From Serinicoccus profundi (lineage in GTDB: Bacteria; Actinomycetota; Actinomycetes; Actinomycetales; Dermatophilaceae), in assembly GCF_008001015.1 (NCBI RefSeq), contig NZ_CP042862.1, positions 2,170,001-2,234,000 on the forward strand: DNA of 64,000 bases, written 5' to 3'. The notes below the pieces were generated by a model. It did no database searches and was not told the DNA's origin. It worked only from the letters and a program-made list of their open reading frames with translations. Both the position numbers and the translations under genes were made by a program. Shown piece after piece: positions 33,420 to 41,435 of this stretch (positions within the stretch are counted from its first letter, which is position 1; each line of letters starts with the position of its first letter).

Positions 33420-33854
33420 TTACGCCGCGCCGACGACCCTTCCGAGGTTGCCGAGGACGAACTCCCAGCCCGCTCGGTAGTCCGCGTGCCCACTGCCCGG
33501 CGTCCGGTGCCGGACCGTGACCCGGGTCCCGCTGCCGTGCTCGACCAGCTCGACCCGCACGGCGTCCTCGGTCCCCTCGCCGTCCCAGCGCCAGGTGAGC
33601 TCGAGGAGGTGCGGCTCGTCCAGCCGGACGACCTCACCCTCAACCCCCGTGCCGCCCTCCGCGCTGCGGGCCGACCACCGTCCTCCCCCTGCGGCCTCCA
33701 TGACATAGACGGTGTCCGGCCAGTGCGGCCACCACCAGCGCGCCAGGCCCTCGGCAGTCGTCCACGCCACCCACACGTCGGCGATCGAGGCCGGCACGTC
33801 CTGGGTCACGACGAGCTCGGGGACGTCATGGGCTGCGGTGCGGTTCGTGGTCAT
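33420..33854 (-). CDS. SRPBCC-domain (AHSA1-like) protein
   Basis: A 144-residue START/Bet v1-like ligand-binding protein of the AHSA1 class. It has VTQDVPASIADVWVAWTTAEGLARWWWPHW, the GGRWSARS strand and a C-terminal helix YRAGWEFVLGNLGRVV. These proteins are commonly the partner of small ArsR regulators. Its ATG overlaps the ArsR stop (ATGA), so both are made together. The ligand is unknown. Confidence 0.9.
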   Translation of the reverse strand: MTTNRTAAHDVPELVVTQDVPASIADVWVAWTTAEGLARWWWPHWPDTVYVMEAAGGGRWSARSAEGGTGVEGEVVRLDEPHLLELTWRWDGEGTEDAVRVELVEHGSGTRVTVRHRTPGSGHADYRAGWEFVLGNLGRVVGAA

Positions 33855-34192
33855 GGTGAGTCCTCCGGTGTCGGTGATGGCGGTGGTGCCTCGAAGCTGT
33901 CGGCCAGGTGTCCCAGCTGGGACGTCCAGAACGTCCTCGTGCGATGGAGCCAGGCCTCGGTCTGCTCGAGGGCCTCCGGGCACAGGCTCACCGTGACGAC
34001 CCTCCCGTGCTTGACCCGACGGACCAGACCCGCTTCCTCCAACACGCCGAGGTGCTTGAGCGTGGCCGGGAGACTGATCGAGATCTCCCGGGCCAGCTGG
34101 GAGACGGTGGCGTCGGTGGCGGACAACCGGCTGACCAGGTGCGCACGGTTGGCATCCCCGAGCGCCGCACAGACGGCCACATGGTTAACCAT
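33851..34192 (-). CDS. ArsR-family transcriptional regulator
   Basis: A 113-residue winged-helix repressor. The helix-turn-helix is ATVSQLAREISISLPATLKHLGVLEEAGLV (key SLPATLKHL), followed by the wing KHGRVVTVSL. No conserved metal-binding cysteine box (CVCD) is present, which suits the SRPBCC-linked subgroup rather than a metal sensor. The start ATG at 34192 lies seven bases after a likely -10 box, so the mRNA is probably leaderless. It is the first gene of a two-gene operon. Confidence 0.92.
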   Translation of the reverse strand: MVNHVAVCAALGDANRAHLVSRLSATDATVSQLAREISISLPATLKHLGVLEEAGLVRRVKHGRVVTVSLCPEALEQTEAWLHRTRTFWTSQLGHLADSFEAPPPSPTPEDSP

Positions 34193-34265: not shown

Positions 34266-34315
34266 ACATCGACCCCCAGGTCCCGTGCTGCTGAACGGAT
34301 CCTGGGGGTCGATGT
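34266..34315. terminator. 15-bp perfect inverted repeat beyond the island, possible original ssrA terminator
   Basis: Arms at 34266-34280 and 34301-34315 are perfectly complementary, with a 20-base loop. Read on the minus strand, it follows the displaced ssrA 3' end by about 12 bases (counting from the repeat), so it may be the ancestral tmRNA terminator now 6.7 kb away from ssrA. Confidence 0.5.
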
Positions 34316-34326
34316 GGCGACAACGC

Positions 34327-34362
34327 GCACAGTGTGAGACACGGTGGTGGAGGTGGCGGGAA
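34327..34362. repeat. attR-like direct repeat: copy of the ssrA 3' end
   Basis: Identical to 40987-41022 except one base (T at 34332 against C at 40992). It includes the tmRNA 3' terminus (complement of CCACCTCCACCA) and 16 flanking bases. The T makes its flank, GCACAGTGTGAGACAC, a perfect complement of the ssrA 5' flank, so this copy looks like the ancestral chromosomal end. Confidence 0.8.
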
Positions 34363-34661
34363 ACGCACCTAAACCGCCCTGACCTGGGAAGATGCGCGCC
34401 CGGTGCAGCGTGTGCCAGTTCTGTGACAGGCTCCGTGCGTGGATCTGGTCACTCCTGCACAGAGGCCCCGCAAGCCCGTACCAGTTATCCGCGAAATGGC
34501 GGGAGCACCCGTCCCGCTCCACCTTCTCGAGCACATCGTAGGTCAGTCGGCAGATCGTTGCCCTGTTGGTGGACCCCCCGAAAACTTGTTGGAACCGCGC
34601 AGGCTTACGCCGACATCAAGGCCTCCCCCTCAGGTTGACAACGACCGCGTCCTGACCTTCG
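34363..34661. other. Island left end without recognisable gene
   Basis: About 300 bases with no frame that I can match to a protein family. The frames present are short and lack ribosome sites. This is where an integrase gene would be expected beside the attachment site, but none is visible, so the region may be a scar of its loss. The segment GGTTGACAAC at 34633-34642 also occurs upstream of ssrA. Confidence 0.45.
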
Positions 34662-35540
34662 CTACACGGAGGTGTTGGTCCCGTCCTCGCTCATGAGGGC
34701 TGCGTTCCGCCCTGCCGGGACCGTGTTGCGTGCCCGCCTGAGGTGCCGGCTGATGGCGGCGGCGAGGGCGGTGAGGCTGTAGGCGCTGAGCGCGGTGAGG
34801 GCGGTGGAGGAGCCGGTGGGAACGGCGGCGTGGTAGGCGATGAGGATGCCCGTGACGGCGCTGGCGGCGCCGATGGCGGAGGACACCCACAGCATGGACC
34901 GGTAGGAGTTCGTGACCTGAGCGGCCGTCGCGACCGGGATGACCATCATCGCGGAGATCAGCAGGAGCCCGATGGTGGACATCCCGGCGACCACCACGAG
35001 GGCTACCAGCACGGTCAACGCCATGACCAGTCCGGTGGTGGACACGCCGGAGGCGCGGGCCGCGGCCTCGTCGAAGGCCAGGGCCACGAGCTGCCTGTAG
35101 AGCAGCGCCAGCACGCCCGCGACCGCGATCGCGAGGGCGGCGACCGACCCGACCTGGCCCCAGGTCAGGTTGAGCGGGCTGCCGAAGAGCAGTCCGAGGA
35201 TCTGGTTCTGCCCTCCGCCGCCGCGGGAGGCGAACAGGTAGCCGGCCGCGATGCCGCCGTAGAAGACCAGGGCGAGGGAGAGGTCCCCGCCGGCGGGACC
35301 GCGGGAGAGGCGCACCAGCGCGAGCTCGGCCAGCGCGGTGAGCACGAGGGCACCGATGAGAGGGTTCAGGCCGGCGAGAAAGGCAAGGCCCACCCCGGCG
35401 AAGGCGACGAGTCCCATCCCGTCGCCGATGAGCGCCTGGCGGCGCTGGACGATGAAGGCGCCGACCAGCGGGGCCACGGCGGCGATGATCGTCGAGGCGA
35501 CCGGGGCGCGCTGCGTGAAACCGAACTCCAGGGCCTCCAT
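34662..35540 (-). CDS. Metal ABC transporter permease (ABC-3 family, Zn/Mn type)
   Basis: A 292-residue permease with about eight hydrophobic helices of the ZnuB/MntB/TroC family. Typical features are the N-terminal MEALEFGFTQRAPVASTII, RRQALIGDGMGLVAFAGVGLAFL and the coupling segment LAFDEAAARASGVSTTGL, then GMSTIGLLLISAMMVIPVATAAQ. It would need an ATPase and a binding protein; only a stump of the ATPase remains directly upstream, joined by TGATG coupling (ATG 35540). Inside the ssrA island. Probably orphaned unless it borrows components from elsewhere. Confidence 0.88.
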   Translation of the reverse strand: MEALEFGFTQRAPVASTIIAAVAPLVGAFIVQRRQALIGDGMGLVAFAGVGLAFLAGLNPLIGALVLTALAELALVRLSRGPAGGDLSLALVFYGGIAAGYLFASRGGGGQNQILGLLFGSPLNLTWGQVGSVAALAIAVAGVLALLYRQLVALAFDEAAARASGVSTTGLVMALTVLVALVVVAGMSTIGLLLISAMMVIPVATAAQVTNSYRSMLWVSSAIGAASAVTGILIAYHAAVPTGSSTALTALSAYSLTALAAAISRHLRRARNTVPAGRNAALMSEDGTNTSV

Positions 35541-35635
35541 CACACGCCCTCCGCAAGTTGTTGGGGCCCGGCCCGGTGGTGCAGCCGCCCGGCAGCGACC
35601 TCGACGACGTCGGTGGCCAGCTCAGCCCGAGGACT
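35540..35635 (-). pseudogene. C-terminal stump of a metal-ABC ATPase gene
   Basis: A 31-codon open stretch ends in TGA overlapping the permease ATG (TGATG). Its residues, including ELATDVVEVAAGRLHHRAGP, resemble the tail that follows the ATPase core in ZnuC-like proteins. No Walker A, signature or Walker B motif exists upstream; the sequence is instead the promoter region of the divergent secreted protein. I infer loss of the ATPase body by deletion. Moderate to low certainty, because C-terminal tails are poorly conserved. Confidence 0.4.
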
Positions 35636-35727
35636 AGGCAGATCAGATGTCACCCATCGGTGCAGCAGTCCCCCACGAGCAGCCCAGGGGTCTTCTTGCC
35701 CGAGTCACCACGTGGTGGACCGATCGT

Positions 35728-35749
35728 GTTCACTTCGGCGTCACCTGGT
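35728..35749 (+). promoter_or_regulatory. PHO-box-like tandem 11-bp repeats
   Basis: GTTCACTTCGG followed directly by CGTCACCTGGT. These are two 11-bp units matching most positions of the actinobacterial PhoP direct-repeat unit (G[GT]TCAYYYR[GC]G). They end 29 bp before the start of the secreted protein gene, a position suited to PhoP/RegX3 activation under phosphate limitation. Pattern matched by eye. Confidence 0.5.
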
Positions 35750-35778
35750 GTGGGTGCGCGCCTCCTACCGTCCGTGGC

Positions 35779-37560
35779 GTGACTTCCACCTCCTCCCGCA
35801 ACCTCCGCAACCGTGTTGTCCGCTCGACGCTCGTCGTCTGTCTTGCCTGCGGGCTGGCTGCTGCCCCGGCCATGGCCGGGGTCGTGCCCGAGCCGGTACG
35901 CCACTCCGCACCGGACGCCGCCTTCACCCTCGACCCGGTCGGCACCTTCGAGACCGGTGTGTTCGACGAGTCCGCGGCCGAGATCGTGGCCTGGTACCCC
36001 GGCGGGCAGCGCGCCCTGGTCGTGAACGCCCAGGGCGGCATGGTCGACGTGCTGGACGCCGCCGACGCGACAAGCCCGGTCAAGGTCGCTGAGATCTCCG
36101 CCGCAGGGCTCGTGGCCGCCGACGGATCCGTGGTGCCGAACGGCACCGTCGCCAACTCGGTCGCCGTCCGTCCCGACGGGCTCGCGGTCGTGGCCCTGGA
36201 GGCGCCGCAGAAGAGCGGAGACGGCTGGTTGTTGGTCGTGGACGTGCGGTCGCCAGAGCCGCGGGCAGTGGGGGCCTACCGAGTGGGGGCTCTGCCGGAC
36301 ATGGTGACCCTGACCCCGCGCGGTGACCGTGCGCTCGTCGCCAACGAGGGTGAGCCGACGGACGACTACAGCGTCGACCCGGAGGGCACCATCTCCGTCG
36401 TGACCCTCCCGAAGCAGCTGACCGAGCGCGGCCGCTCGGCGCAGCACGGGACGGCCGCGATCATCCAGGACGCGGTGGCCACCGCCGACTTCCGCGCCTT
36501 CGAGGGCGACGCCCTCCCCGAGGGTGTCCGCGTCTTCGGCGGACGGGATGACGCCGGCACCGGTTCCCCGGAGTTCCCCGTGTCGGAGAACCTAGAGCCG
36601 GAGTACGTCACCGTCTCCAAGGACGGCCGTACCGCGTGGGTGTCGCTGCAGGAGGCCAACGCCCTGGCCGTCCTGGACGTACAAAGCGCGACCGTGACCG
36701 ACCTGCTGCCGCTGGGAACGGTAGACCGCAGGGAGGTCGCCTTCGACCCCTCCGACCGCGACGGCGGCATCAACCTCGGCACCTGGCCGGTCCAGGGCTT
36801 CCGGCTGCCGGATGCGATCGACTCCTACCGGGTGCGCGGCACCGACTACGTCGTCACCGCCAACGAAGGCGACGCCCGCGACTACGACGCCTACTCCGAA
36901 GAGGCGCGGGTCAAGGACCTGGGCCAGGACGGCATACCCCCCATCTGCGACGGCGTCGCTGAGCAGGCGGGCATGAGTGTGGAGCAGCTGCAGGCCGACG
37001 AGAACCTCGGACGTCTCAACATCACCCTGGCCCAGGGCCTGGACGAGGGGGCCGGCTGCTACGCCGAGCTGTTCACCTACGGGACCCGTGGCTTCTCGAT
37101 CGTCGACGGTGAGGGTGCGCTCGTGTTCGACTCCGGTTCCCAGTTCGAGCAGATCATCGCCGAGGCGGTCCCGGACTTCTTCAACTCCAACCACTCCGAG
37201 ACCAACCTCGAGGGCCGTTCCGATGACAAGGGCCCCGAGCCCGAGGGCGTCGTCCTGGGTGAGGTCGACGGTCGGACCTACGCGTTCATCGGCCTGGAGC
37301 GCATCGGCGGTGTCATGGTCTACGACGTCACCGAGCCCGCGCAGGCCGCCTTCGTCACCTACGCCAACAACCGCGACTTCTCGGTCTCGGTCGAGGACGC
37401 CGAGGACGTCGACACTGCGCTGGCCGCGGCCGGTGACCTCGGCGCCGAGGGCCTGGCCTTCGTCCCGGCTGATCAGTCGCCCACAGGGGCACCCCTGGTC
37501 ATCGTCGGCAACGAGGTGTCCGGGACGACGACCTTCTTCGAGGTCACCGACCTGCGGTGA
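35779..37560 (+). CDS. Secreted choice-of-anchor-I-type beta-propeller protein
   Basis: A 593-residue exported protein. The N-terminal signal peptide is a basic RNLRNRVVRSTLVVCLACG stretch followed by AAAPAMAG. The mature part shows repeated beta-propeller patterns (GTFETGVFDESAAEIVAWYP, LVANEGEPTDDY, YVTVSKDGRTAWVSLQEANA, VTANEGDARDYDAY) typical of choice-of-anchor-I proteins, a family often annotated as alkaline-phosphatase-like. ANEGE/ANEGDARDYD repeats could bind calcium. GTG start at 35779. Preceded by PHO-box-like repeats, so a role in phosphate acquisition outside the cell is plausible. Catalytic activity is not evident from the sequence. Confidence 0.85.
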   Translation: MTSTSSRNLRNRVVRSTLVVCLACGLAAAPAMAGVVPEPVRHSAPDAAFTLDPVGTFETGVFDESAAEIVAWYPGGQRALVVNAQGGMVDVLDAADATSPVKVAEISAAGLVAADGSVVPNGTVANSVAVRPDGLAVVALEAPQKSGDGWLLVVDVRSPEPRAVGAYRVGALPDMVTLTPRGDRALVANEGEPTDDYSVDPEGTISVVTLPKQLTERGRSAQHGTAAIIQDAVATADFRAFEGDALPEGVRVFGGRDDAGTGSPEFPVSENLEPEYVTVSKDGRTAWVSLQEANALAVLDVQSATVTDLLPLGTVDRREVAFDPSDRDGGINLGTWPVQGFRLPDAIDSYRVRGTDYVVTANEGDARDYDAYSEEARVKDLGQDGIPPICDGVAEQAGMSVEQLQADENLGRLNITLAQGLDEGAGCYAELFTYGTRGFSIVDGEGALVFDSGSQFEQIIAEAVPDFFNSNHSETNLEGRSDDKGPEPEGVVLGEVDGRTYAFIGLERIGGVMVYDVTEPAQAAFVTYANNRDFSVSVEDAEDVDTALAAAGDLGAEGLAFVPADQSPTGAPLVIVGNEVSGTTTFFEVTDLR

Positions 37561-37733
37561 GCCCTGGCGGTGGGCCAGGCCGCGCCCCCTTGTCCGGGTG
37601 GCCTGGCCCGCCGGGGACGGTGCTGACCGAGACGATCGGGGCTGCCGCACCGGATCGCCACCTGTTCTCTTCCCGCCCCAGGGAACGGTGGCTCGCGCCT
37701 CTGGTCGGAGAAGGACGCTTTCCGGTGCTTCTT

Positions 37734-38415
37734 TCAGTGGCTGGCGAACGTGTAGCCCGGGCCCCGCACGGTGACGATGTGCCGCGGTGCGGCGGGGTCG
37801 GGCTCGATCTTGGCGCGCAGGCGCTTGATGTGGACGTCGAGGGTCTTGGTGTCGCCGACGTAGTCGCTGCCCCATACCGGTCGATGAGCTGGCTGCGGGT
37901 GAGCACCCGATCGGCGTTGCGCAGCAGCGTCTCCAGCAGGTGGAACTCTCGCAACGGCATCAACACCTGCTCCCCGTGGACGTGCACGGTGTGGCCTTCG
38001 ACGTCGATCCGCACCGGGCCGGCCTCGATGGTTGCGGGGCTGAGGTCCTCGGGCTCGGCCAGCCGGCGCAGCACCGCCTTGACCCGTGCGGGCAGCTCGC
38101 GGGCTGAGTAGGGCTTGGTGACGTAGTCATCCGCCCCCAGCTCCAGCGCGACAACCTTCTCGATCCCGGAGTCCTCGGCCGTGAGCATGATGACGGGCAC
38201 GCCCGAACGCTGCCGCAGGCCGCGGAGGACGTCCACGCCGGGCAATCCAGGCAGCATCAGGTCCAGCAGCACCAGGTCCGCCCGTTGCGGTCGAACCGGG
38301 CCAGGGCCTCGGGACCGGTGGCGGCGACGTCGACGTCATACCCCTCCCGCCGGAGGACATAGGACAGGGGGTCCGAGAAGGACTCCTCGTCCTCCACGAC
38401 GAGAAGCCGGGTCAC
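37734..38415 (-). pseudogene. PhoP/RegX3-type response regulator with two frameshifts
   Basis: In three frames the segment encodes a complete OmpR-class response regulator. The receiver is MTRLLVVEDEESFSDPLSYV and VLLDLMLPGLPGVDVL (phosphoacceptor Asp), then MLTAEDSG and DDYVTKPYS; the DNA-binding winged helix has LREFHLLETLLRNADRVLTR, KTLDVHIKRLRAKIE and VTVRGPGYTF. A one-base loss near 38276 (before the receiver Asp) and another near 37878 (before WGSDYVGDTKT) break the frame. Both fall in GC-rich runs, so sequencing error is possible, but two in one gene favours decay. The GTG start at 38415 and stop at 37734 are inferred. No sensor kinase is adjacent. Confidence 0.8.
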
Positions 38416-38594
38416 AGCTGTCGCCAACGTCGAAGAGCCCTTGCTGCACCCTGCGATGCTCGAGCCCCACCCCTTCAGCGGTGTAACCACCGGTTGGGTC
38501 CTGGCCTCTGCCACGGCCCCTCGGCCCACCCGTTCCTCGCGCCAGCAGACGTCCGCGCCCGGAGGCCAAGCGAGCACCCGGGCTGCCGCGGACC

Positions 38595-38616
38595 GTTCAC
38601 GCCTGGTTGACCTGCA
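38595..38616 (+). promoter_or_regulatory. PHO-box-like tandem repeats upstream of the phosphoesterase
   Basis: GTTCACGCCTG and GTTGACCTGCA are contiguous 11-bp units, with a weaker third (GGTTCCGGGGT) directly after. They match the PhoP direct-repeat pattern about as well as the set at 35728 and lie 70 bp before the metallophosphoesterase start. Confidence 0.45.
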
Positions 38617-38686
38617 GGTTCCGGGGTGTCCATCCCGCCGGCGCACAGTGACGCCGCAAGCCTCTCCCCTGCTCAAGGAGTCACTC

Positions 38687-40606
38687 GTGCCACGTCCGCT
38701 CGCTCCTGCCCTGGCCGCCCTGGCCGCCGCCACGACGCTTGGCGCTCTGGCCGCAGCTCCCGCCGGTGCGCTGGCGCCCATGACGCCGCTGCCCTCGGCG
38801 GGCAGCTCGCCCGTCGCTGCCCAGCCCGGCTTCCGGGTGCTGCCCTACCTGCAGAACCCCTCCTCGGACTCGATGACGATCGTGTGGGTCGGTGAGCTCG
38901 ACACCGCCGGGACCGTCACGGTGCGCGGCCCCGGCATCGGGACGCGGACGCTGACCAGCGACCCGCGTCACCTGGACCTGATGGAGTACTCCGACGCCGA
39001 GCTGGCCCAGTCGATCCCCGGTCTGGAGCAGGGCTCCTGGCTGCTCTCCGACAACAACTACCAGCACGTCGTCGAAGTCGAGGGCCTCAAGGCCGGCAAG
39101 ACCTACAAGTACACCGTCACCCAAGACGGGGTCGAGCACGAGGCCACCTTCTCCACCGCCCCCGACGCCCAGCGGTGGCAGGACGTGCGCATCGTCGCCT
39201 TCTCCGACACCGAGACCGAGCCCTACGGCCGCATCGAGCACCGCGAGTGGGAGATCGCCCACGCCGGCTACGCCGACGGCTCGGTGCAGCGGCCCGGGAC
39301 CGACTCGGTCTGGGCGGACAAGTACGGCACCGCGGTGCGGTACGGGCAGGAGCTGGTGCGCTATCCGATGAACCAGGCGCAGGCGCTGGACGCCAACCTC
39401 GACACGATCGCCGCGCAGGACCCCGACCTGCTCATGATCGCCGGCGACCTGGCCCAGGGATCCGGCTACCAGCCGGCATGGGACGAGTTCTGGCGCCACT
39501 TCGCCGGCGAGTTCGGCACCCTGGCCTCCACCGTCCCGCTGGTCACCGCCCTGGGCAACTGGGAGACCTACGCCGGGATCAGCGGCGGCTACGGCACCCC
39601 CACCGACCGCACCCCGCCCGTGGTGGCCCGCAACCGCTACCACGACTACATGATCACCCCCGGGGACCCGCACAACACCCGTTTCAAGGACTCCTACTAC
39701 CGCCTCGACCACGGCCCGGTCACCATCCTGACCCTGGACTCCACCAACGGGGTGCCGGACGAGAATACCCGCACCGGGCAGCTCTCCGGCGAGGTCTTCT
39801 CCGGCGACGACACCAACCTCACCCCCGAGCGGATGTCCACCGACACCCAGGGAGAGATCGCGGCACCGGAGTACGACGCCACGTTCGCCGACGTGTTCGG
39901 CACCGACCCCGCGCAGAGCGACCTGCCCAACCTCACCCCCGGCGGTGAGCAGTGGGACTGGGCTCGCGAGCAGCTTGCCAACGCCCGCGCTCAGGGGCAG
40001 GTGATCCTGGTGCAGTTCCACCACGCCGCCTACTCCAGCGGCGTGCACGGCACCCCGCCCAACCACGAGCACGCCGACAACCAGTCCGGTGTGGCGATGC
40101 GCGCCTACACCCCGATGTTCGAGGAGTACGGCGTCGCCGCCGTGATCAGCGGCCACGACGAGATGTTCGAACGCTCCCTCGTCGACAGCGACGGTGACGG
40201 GGTTGGGGTGCAGGTCTACGACGTCGGCGTGGCCGCCGACGGGCTGCGCGGCGAGCAGCTCTACCGGACCCAGGACGGACAGTGGGAGCCGATCCGCTTC
40301 AACACCCACTCACAGTGGATGGCCGCCAAGGATGAGCCCGAGCTCTGGGAGAACGACGAGAACGGCCAACCCCGCCTCCTCGACGGCGGCCTGCACTACG
40401 GACACCTGCAGATGGACCTGCGACGCACCCGCTGCGGCTCCGAGCTGACCTTCACCCCGGTCTACCTCTTCCCCCTCATGGACCAGGACTACGAGGTGAC
40501 CGGCACCGAGCGCCGCGTCTACGACGACGTCCTCACCCTCGACATTGACGCCGACGGCCGCGTCGTGCAGGACAACAGCTGCACCGGAAACGCCCACCGG
40601 CCCTGA
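38687..40606 (+). CDS. Secreted purple-acid-phosphatase-like metallophosphoesterase
   Basis: A 639-residue exported phosphoesterase. A signal peptide (ALAALAAATTLGALAAAPAGA) precedes a fibronectin-like N-domain (FRVLPYLQNPSSDSMTIVWV) and a calcineurin-like phosphoesterase domain. The metal motifs are recognisable but diverged: FSDTETEP (usually DxH), IAGDLAQGS, LGNWETY (usually GNHE), VQFHHAAYSS and ISGHDEMFERS (usually GHxHxYER). This hints at altered metal use. GTG start at 38687 with AAGGAG six bases upstream. PHO-box-like repeats precede it. It probably releases phosphate from organic phosphoesters outside the cell. Confidence 0.88.
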   Translation: MPRPLAPALAALAAATTLGALAAAPAGALAPMTPLPSAGSSPVAAQPGFRVLPYLQNPSSDSMTIVWVGELDTAGTVTVRGPGIGTRTLTSDPRHLDLMEYSDAELAQSIPGLEQGSWLLSDNNYQHVVEVEGLKAGKTYKYTVTQDGVEHEATFSTAPDAQRWQDVRIVAFSDTETEPYGRIEHREWEIAHAGYADGSVQRPGTDSVWADKYGTAVRYGQELVRYPMNQAQALDANLDTIAAQDPDLLMIAGDLAQGSGYQPAWDEFWRHFAGEFGTLASTVPLVTALGNWETYAGISGGYGTPTDRTPPVVARNRYHDYMITPGDPHNTRFKDSYYRLDHGPVTILTLDSTNGVPDENTRTGQLSGEVFSGDDTNLTPERMSTDTQGEIAAPEYDATFADVFGTDPAQSDLPNLTPGGEQWDWAREQLANARAQGQVILVQFHHAAYSSGVHGTPPNHEHADNQSGVAMRAYTPMFEEYGVAAVISGHDEMFERSLVDSDGDGVGVQVYDVGVAADGLRGEQLYRTQDGQWEPIRFNTHSQWMAAKDEPELWENDENGQPRLLDGGLHYGHLQMDLRRTRCGSELTFTPVYLFPLMDQDYEVTGTERRVYDDVLTLDIDADGRVVQDNSCTGNAHRP

Positions 40607-40986
40607 CCTCAGGGCCGCTCGGCGGTCAACTGGCGAGACAAGCCACGCTCCGGCCGCATAGGCGCCCACCGTCCCGTCCGGGATGGTGGGCGCTCCGGTC
40701 CGCAACAGATCTACACCATCCGCGACGTCAGGGCCTTGTGTCGTCGGTACGCGCGAACGCCCTCCTTGTCGCTGCGATCCACGCCGGCAGCGCGTGCACG
40801 GGCCCGTCGGGTTCTATGACGCGCGAGTTACCCACCGCGCCCAGAGCATGATCCTGTGACAGCTGCGTGCCAGATCCGTCAGTGGGAACCTGCGCTTTGG
40901 TCTCTTTAGCCACATCCACGCGACCCCTGCGCATGGCCCAGGATCCGCGTCGTTGCACGGATTGTCGGCGCCGCCGAGGCGGTACT
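40607..40986. other. Island right end, non-coding apart from a terminator
   Basis: 380 bases between the phosphoesterase and the ssrA-proximal repeat. Apart from the hairpin at 40662-40693 I see no gene: frames are short, without ribosome sites or family motifs. Because tmRNA is transcribed toward this region, some of it is the present 3' flank of ssrA; no strong hairpin follows the tmRNA end here. Confidence 0.45.
40662..40693 (+). terminator. Hairpin terminator after the phosphoesterase
   Basis: A 14-bp stem (arms 40662-40675 and 40680-40693, one G-U pair) with a 4-base loop, 56 bp after the stop codon. Confidence 0.7.
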
Positions 40987-41022
40987 GCACAGCGTGAGAC
41001 ACGGTGGTGGAGGTGGCGGGAA
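40987..41022. repeat. attL-like direct repeat overlapping the ssrA 3' end
   Basis: Second copy of the 36-bp repeat, including the last 18 bases of functional ssrA and 18 bases of 3' flank. It differs from 34327-34362 by one base. Its flank pairs with the ssrA 5' flank with one C-A mismatch, as expected if this copy was brought in by the island. Confidence 0.8.
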
Positions 41023-41372
41023 TCGAACCCGCGTCCGTTGCCGGGAAACCAGGGCTTCTCCGGGTGCAGTGCGCTAGGGATTTTCTCGGCCCCAGGGCTC
41101 GCGCGCACACGTTCCCTGACAGGCCCAGTCGAGTTGGAGTCCCACGTGATCCCCCGACACAGATCACGCAGCAAGTCATCTAGATGATGCCAGGATCTGA
41201 GCCGATGACGAGCTCAGGCTGACAGACTTCGGGCTCGCTCAGGCGGCGAGGGCGAAGTCGCTGCGCTTGGAATTGGCAGCTATTGGTTTCGCAAGGAGCG
41301 TTGACGAGATGACCTTGCATCCTCGACCCGCTTCCCCTGAAGTGCCGAACAACGTCGAAACCGATCACCCCC
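41005..41372 (-). ncRNA. ssrA: tmRNA (transfer-messenger RNA)
   Basis: A 368-base tmRNA that rescues stalled ribosomes and tags nascent proteins. The 5' end GGGGGTGATCGGTTTCGAC pairs as acceptor (GGGGGUG with CACCUCC, including the G3-U70 pair that identifies alanine), the T arm is GCGGGTTCGATTCCCGC, and CCA is encoded. The tag frame at 41278-41240 reads ANSKRSDFALAA then TGA, an actinobacterial-type tag. smpB lies 0.55 kb upstream on the same strand. The 3' end doubles as an island attachment site. Confidence 0.97.
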
Positions 41373-41378
41373 ATGGGG

Positions 41379-41394
41379 GTGTCTCACACTGTGC
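41379..41394 (-). promoter_or_regulatory. 5' flank of ssrA complementary to its 3' flank
   Basis: Read on the minus strand, GCACAGTGTGAGACAC lies six bases before the tmRNA 5' end. The 3' flank carries GTGTCTCACGCTGTGC, so the precursor can extend its acceptor helix by 15 of 16 pairs. This probably guides 5' and 3' processing. Confidence 0.6.
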
Positions 41395-41435
41395 AGTTGT
41401 CAACCAGCCCCACGAGGTGCGGGGCCACTCATCTG

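Follow-up and report, generated by a model that had tools for sequence, protein, structure and literature searches.

An integrase-less island at the 3′ end of the tmRNA gene of Serinicoccus profundi, probably the remnant of a site-specifically integrated element

What kind of DNA lies between two copies of the 3′ end of the transfer-messenger RNA (tmRNA) gene of Serinicoccus profundi, and how did it come to be there, when no gene for a tyrosine integrase is found in it? The question concerns positions 34327-41004 of a 64,000-nucleotide window, the whole stretch of DNA analysed here (positions 2,170,001 to 2,234,000 of contig NZ_CP042862.1, or G000:C1:2170001-2234000, G000 being the source genome). 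A preliminary description had read the interval as an island bounded by attL and attR attachment sites. That reading is supported by homologous integrase-bearing elements at tmRNA in congeners and by the absence of the island in the relative closest by tmRNA identity (G021), and the interval is very probably an element that integrated site-specifically at the tmRNA 3′ end and later lost its integrase, leaving a remnant that resembles a cis-mobilizable element (CIME).

The insertion target, the tmRNA gene (ssrA), lies at 41005-41372 on the minus strand (Rfam RF00023, E 1.3e-60) and encodes the tag ANSKRSDFALAA. Both edges of the island bear a direct repeat of its 3′ end: the distal att copy (34327-34369, plus strand) and the tmRNA-side att copy (40987-41029, plus strand) are 43 nt long, 93% identical, and 6660 bp apart from start to start. 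The two near-identical 36-bp repeats noticed at the outset correspond to the first 36 nt, in which there is a single mismatch, and they do contain the final 18 bases of tmRNA, 41005-41022 being its 3′ end. The core of the distal copy reads GCACAGTGTGAGACAC-GGTG-GTGGAGGTGGCGGGAA, and the GGTG is the same in the tmRNA-side copy (bases 41003-41006). A dispersed repeat element, which would have spoken against an island, is ruled out by the count of copies in the whole 3,475,711-bp genome: a 34-mer of the repeat, with up to three mismatches allowed, occurs twice on the plus strand and nowhere on the other, and the reversed 34-mer, searched as a control, does not occur.

The two edges also carry a phased doublet of the form YGTGNCAG-N3-YGTGNCAG, at 34411-34429 on the left (TGTGCCAG-TTC-TGTGACAG, plus strand) and at 40855-40873 on the right (TGTGACAG-CTG-CGTGCCAG, plus strand), each with an 11-bp period. 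These are exactly the two strict doublets in the G000 genome, with an expectation of 0.02 per window. By analogy with the arm sites of lambda-type integrases, which we take them to resemble, the doublets may be integrase arm-type sites, the left one corresponding to the P′ arm and the right one to the P arm, and the functional att unit is probably longer than the 36-bp repeats alone.

The same anatomy can be followed in relatives. The tmRNA region was located in 57 of 58 genomes, with second repeat copies in many congeners, and 40 loci were fetched from 30 relatives, namely 29 congeners (of 30, G005 being left out) and one further genome of the family. Aligned att copies share a core GCACAGYGTGAGACAC-NNNN-GTGGAGGYGGCGGGAA, which occurs in named records of Ornithinimicrobium pekingense, O. 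cerasi, and several Serinicoccus (11 stretches), and at every distal copy the element starts right after the core. Two YGTGNCAG sites with an 11-bp period, the first at +82 to +85 from the core, are present in 15 of 17 distal copies, those of G024 and G026 having one doublet member only. On the tmRNA side, where 18 copies were scanned, an 11-bp-phased doublet stands 112-136 bp ahead of the core in 11; the pair in G025 is spaced 10 bp, G001 has a single strict member, and no doublet of that pattern was found in the copies of G007, G016, G021, G026, and G027. A slightly looser doublet 115-141 bp before the tmRNA-end motif was found in 18 of 186 family genomes (16 of 31 within the genus and 2 of 155 outside it), all 16 genus matches being at tmRNA, and the reversed control gave 0 of 186. 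The two genomes outside the genus were counted by the motif itself, and one of them has an integrase-like open reading frame (ORF) beside the doublet, its translation judged by eye.

A comparison with relatives had been proposed at the outset, and some congeners do have integrase-bearing elements with termini of this kind. In 10 of the 31 genus genomes (G002, G003, G006, G011, G013, G017, G019, G028, G029, and G030), a gene for a 400-aa tyrosine integrase (PF00589 and PF14659) lies next to tmRNA and is directed away from it; the distance from the tmRNA match to the start of its aligned part is 177-389 bp, and the first 56-65 residues are unaligned in G006 and G029. Besides the integrase, the G017 element codes for a TrwC relaxase, whose relatives in G011 and G002 are 44-45% identical to it. 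Truncated integrases beside tmRNA, amounting to 36 codons in G004, 23 in G024, and two fragments in G025, show that integrase loss in place is seen in relatives. In G013, a newer integrase-bearing element separates an older remnant from tmRNA: a gene shared with the island, for a choice-of-anchor protein (86% DNA identity), a piece of the island's regulator gene, and a matching right end all lie beyond the distal copy, and the left-hand repeat of this older remnant was not found among the lined-up core copies. O. pekingense (G001) has four core copies in ~83 kb, with none of its eight PF00589 matches among them. A LacI/ABC/phosphotriesterase operon lies within one G001 element. In G021, a thioredoxin gene, an NlpC/P60-like ORF (identified by eye), one repeat copy, tmRNA, and smpB stand together without an island. 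Among the fetched loci only G013 has an island gene, and it lies beside a repeat copy, so that carriage of the island genes without any repeat, which would have told against an island, was not encountered.

Several other features of these loci were seen alongside. Relatives of the tmRNA integrase, 70-73% identical, stand elsewhere in five genomes (G002:C1:872363, G003:C55:7084, G004:C1:873291, G015:C7:319582, and G027:C1:1710407). G027 has a decayed core with arm-like sites on both sides (L095 ~2150-2460, G027:C1:1595176) and a second core copy 36 kb on (L073 11559), far from tmRNA, which may be what is left of a distant tandem array. A phage-tail-like gene cluster resembling contractile structures was recognized by eye near the tmRNA arrays of two species (L053-L055, in the outermost G001 element, and L077). 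A HepT-like/nucleotidyltransferase toxin-antitoxin pair adjoins the left end of the G004 element (L041 3280-3917), and ORFs resembling it, again by eye, occupy the corresponding place in G011 and G017.

The island itself lacks integration and transfer machinery. The absence of an integrase, already stated in the preliminary description, is confirmed by the PF00589 profile, which has 12 matches in the G000 genome and none in the window (serine recombinases were not searched), and no G000 member of the congener tmRNA integrase family was found at E<=1e-40. No relaxase domain was detected among the five island ORFs scanned, nor any match to the G017 TrwC relaxase. An integrative and mobilizable or an integrative and conjugative element (ICE) is recognized by encoding its integrase together with functions for mobilization or conjugation, and the island encodes neither; its sequence features fit a CIME, with attL and attR kept and integrase and transfer genes absent, and it belongs to a known kind, as a CIME-like member of a locally common insertion family. 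Elsewhere in G000, an adjacent integrase-like gene pair occurs in three copies with identical scores (G000:C1:90748-92345, 1310737-1312331, and 1545174-1546768), probably a multi-copy transposon.

Toward the inside of the right doublet lies a 25-bp dyad-like block, GGGT-N3-TTG-N5-CAA-N3-ACCC with two mismatches (40809-40833), which overlaps the integrase start in some integrase-bearing congeners and is present, at up to three mismatches, in 5 of 18 tmRNA-side copies. The idea that the right end retains the first integrase codons is weakened by O. cerasi, in which the block contains an in-frame stop and is followed by integrase-like sequence (by eye); because of that stop, the block looks more like a DNA site than a coding remnant.

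The four bases in the middle of the core bear on where recombination took place. This NNNN spacer varies across genomes and is the same at both ends in 7 of 14 pairs, compared with 1.8 in shuffles (P 9.5e-5), or in 5 of 12 once two near-duplicate genomes are removed (P 7e-4). One pair was taken per genome: the G001 pair was formed with the distal copy closest to tmRNA (ATTC versus GTGA), although the next copy, GTGA, would have matched; G027, whose second copy is 1.57 Mb away, was left out; the two copies are on different contigs in G003, G024, G026, G028, G029, and G030; and the distal spacer of G004 is uncertain, with an extra base. The spacers of G000 (GGTG), G002, G003, and G007 are each unique among the tmRNA-side copies lined up. 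The four variable bases most likely sit in the strand-exchange region.

Part of the core also belongs to a likely stem of the tmRNA precursor. In all 30 genus genomes parsed, G000 included, the sequence flanking tmRNA on the 5′ side is complementary to that on the 3′ side, with duplex energies of −31 to −49 kcal/mol (without a shuffle control), and the paired sequences covary from clade to clade, GAGACAC and GACGTGCC being examples from two clades. In G000, the 3′ strand of this stem (40984-41002, minus strand), which is the outer half of the att core, pairs with the 5′ strand at 41379-41397 (minus strand), and the 461-nt fold has a z-score of −4.3. This long covarying stem is apparently a conserved feature of the precursor.

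A terminator-like hairpin with a 21-bp inverted repeat, oriented with tmRNA transcription, stands at 34266-34315 (minus strand), just outside the distal copy, where the 62-nt fold has a z-score of −5.8, compared with −1.0 beside the G000 tmRNA (100 mononucleotide shuffles each). After the stem, 14 of 18 tmRNA-side copies have a strong hairpin (z −3.6 or lower), which is weak beside tmRNA in G000, G001, G016, and the island-free G021. The segment 34258-34362 aligns at 82.6% with tmRNA-adjacent DNA of G004. The hairpin at 34266-34315 is interpreted as former tmRNA downstream DNA that the insertion would have displaced.

From the repeats, the doublets, the homologous integrase-bearing elements, the missing integrase, the frameshifts in the cargo, and the displaced G013 remnant, all read in the DNA, we infer a crossover position, an order of events, and a capacity for mobilization. 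The element would have entered by site-specific recombination at the tmRNA 3′ end, through a tyrosine integrase of the type found in congeners, at an att core made up of the tmRNA 3′ end, the four variable bases, and the 3′ strand of the precursor stem. Insertion would then have restored both the tmRNA 3′ end and the stem from the element's own copy and shifted the old downstream DNA, with its hairpin, out to 34266-34315. The integrase gene would have been lost afterwards and the cargo would have decayed in part, so that the remnant would now be fixed, in principle excisable should a cognate integrase arrive.

Several observations weigh against this history. The right terminus resembles three other integrase-less ends more closely than it does the integrase-type ends included in the comparison, and loss of the integrase in this very copy is therefore not demonstrated. 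G000 also contains nothing similar to the three integrases tested. The G+C content of the island is about that of its surroundings, with no compositional signature. The GGTG spacer is not private to G000, as it also adjoins tmRNA in G012 and G034, which belong to other clades, and the spacers of 7 of the 14 pairs differ, tandem arrays and copies on separate contigs being included. The island-free G021 has no hairpin at tmRNA (z 0.0), and so the hairpin is no universal marker of old downstream DNA. Finally, an island-free relative had been predicted in which the sequence ending at 34326 joins ssrA directly through one repeat copy. G021 lacks the island and has a single repeat copy, as predicted, but the junction itself was not found: the arsR/AHSA1 flank had no match at a cut-off of E 1e-8 in any of the 40 loci, several of which stop before thioredoxin, and none of them shows an exact empty site with that flank. 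The arsR and AHSA1 genes (33420-34192), between thioredoxin and the distal repeat, may themselves be an older insertion, the NlpC/P60-like ORF occupying that place in G021.

The grouping of right ends is the starting point of the alternative that survives best, which we nevertheless consider unlikely: a long-standing non-autonomous lineage that has no integrase, uses the integrase of resident elements in trans, and combines conserved ends with exchangeable cargo. Such a passenger lineage at the tmRNA of Ornithinimicrobium and Serinicoccus, doubtful as it is, would be defined by a right block of ~180 bp (the dyad, two arm-like sites, the hairpin, and the core) and a left end of ~100 bp. Six integrase-less right ends (G000, the older G013 remnant, G001_328, G001_382, G001_tm, and G001_337) share the dyad-to-core block, and four of them (G000, G001_328, G001_382, and the older G013 remnant) score 142-195 with one another and 68-100 with three integrase-type ends. 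All eight PF00589 matches of G001 fall outside 299-383 kb of contig C7, the sole one nearby among the five in G013 is in the newer element, and the cargo differs, with phosphatase genes in G000 and the LacI/ABC/phosphotriesterase operon in one G001 element. The division is blurred by G001_tm and G001_337, which score 131 mutually; their scores are 79-111 against the four and 64-106 against the three, and they do not belong clearly to one side or the other. The integrase-type ends compared are only three, one of them (G024) with a truncated integrase, and ends like those of G002 and G017 have no dyad. From the dyad to the core all nine ends are related, none of the 36 pairs being matched by any of 200 shuffles. 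Outside the dyad, the pairs above shuffles are G000 with G001_382, G001_328 with G001_382, G000 with the older G013 remnant, and the latter with the integrase-bearing end of G013, a resemblance (0 of 200 shuffles, z 3.4) that looks as if an integrase had once been there. Moreover, no recent transfer or identical copy was seen, and neither G000 nor G001 has a helper of the tmRNA integrase family at E<=1e-40. The grouping of the four ends hints at a non-autonomous lineage, short of proof. If one exists, each insertion must bring in anew a strand that pairs with the 5′ flank of the host, which could limit hosts to those with matching stems.

Less probable still is a fusion, in which an internal deletion that removed the integrase and transfer genes would have joined the left end of an element to the right end of its tandem neighbour. 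Tandem arrays do exist, as in the four core copies of O. pekingense and the two elements of G013, and the choice-of-anchor gene and the regulator recur in G013 (86% over 1.9 kb) where the left-end permease does not; yet both edges of the island share GGTG, seen in no other lined-up core copy (though G012 and G034 have it), which fits a single integration event. A third reading takes the interval for ordinary chromosome, as the similar G+C content might suggest, and the second repeat for a duplicate of the tmRNA end that arose by chance or by homologous recombination. It is highly improbable and is ruled out by doublets confined genome-wide to the two island edges, being contradicted also by the integrase-bearing elements of relatives, whose ends are of the same kind, and by the absence of the island genes from the tmRNA site of G021.

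As a CIME-like remnant, the island can be set beside several described systems. Dehalococcoides ssrA islands stand in tandem downstream of tmRNA, with copies of the tmRNA 3′ end as their boundaries (McMurdie et al. 2011, PMC3146451); as reported there, an integration module is present in 16 islands, and 15 without one were suggested by the authors to be possibly cis-mobilizable. The likeness lies in the tmRNA 3′-end copies as borders, the tandem arrays, and the module-less islands (PMC3146451). The Dehalococcoides integrase is a serine recombinase (CcrB-like) whose gene overlaps attL, whereas a tyrosine integrase family and phased arm-like sites are seen here, in actinobacteria, and the cargo described in that source is unrelated to that of the G000 island (PMC3146451). 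With CIMEs, as defined in the account that also sets out the accretion model (PMC5704250), the island shares retained attL and attR, the loss of integration and transfer genes, and tandem accretion with a newer element; it differs from those described there in lineage and target. Actinomycete integrative and conjugative elements (AICEs) with tyrosine integrases are mostly found at tRNA 3′ ends, and MobF (TrwC) relaxases have been used to find ICEs of the type IV secretion system kind (PMC3218068). The same integrase superfamily, an RNA-gene 3′-end target, and TrwC relaxases in some congener elements recall AICEs (PMC3218068), but the G000 island has neither integrase nor relaxase. Over about residues 77-389, the congener integrase is 42.6% identical to that of Actinomyces phage xhp1 and 30.4% identical to that of mycobacteriophage L5 (tblastn), both being among its nearest phage relatives; these are phage proteins, and the comparison is one of protein sequences. 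Literature searches, which make weak negatives since subscription journals were mostly uncovered, listed no title on the tmRNA site for Ornithinimicrobium or Serinicoccus islands or integrases, none on an att core overlapping a precursor-tmRNA stem, and none on grouped integrase-less ends or integrase-less islands mobilized in trans.

The cargo had been described as a coherent set for phosphate and metal acquisition, which is half right, since the regulator is frameshifted and the permease stands alone. The part that holds is a phosphatase-like enzyme, a purple-acid-phosphatase-like metallophosphoesterase encoded by an ORF at 38441-40606 (plus strand; PF00149 E 1.4e-12; PF16656 E 1.2e-5, below cut-off), within which the true start probably lies. 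Its gene is present in 1 of the 31 genus genomes, G000 itself, and a search for its source gave no match in 72,556 plasmid records and no solved structure at E 0.001. The PhoB-like response regulator (37703-38412, minus strand) has a broken frame, its N-terminal, middle, and C-terminal parts lying in different frames. From this gene content, a phosphate-scavenging role of the island is plausible. Metal acquisition rests on one orphan gene, a metal-type ABC permease (ABC-3) at 34662-35543 (minus strand; PF00950 E 4.3e-45; NCBIfam AztB/ZnuB-like, below cut-offs), which has no ATPase or binding-protein gene beside it and a best match of ~42% among 21 other genus genomes. The choice-of-anchor I family protein (35647-37560, plus strand; PF22494 E 6.2e-95; NF038117 above cut-off) is an exported protein with no role assigned. 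Among 21 other genus genomes it is 85% identical in G013, with 54-80% fragments in G015 and weaker relatives in G010 and G019. Its single match in the PDB, the surface layer protein 1l0q, is weak (E 0.0033).

By these comparisons, the tmRNA 3′ end is a hot spot for insertions in this actinobacterial genus, and the likely anatomy of the att site (core, four-base spacer, and phased arm-like sites) is readable by comparison alone. The elements form a natural series: some bear an integrase, others a truncated one, and islands such as that of S. profundi none. The overlap of the att core with the precursor stem predicts that an element would enter a host only if the 5′ flank there pairs with the incoming strand.

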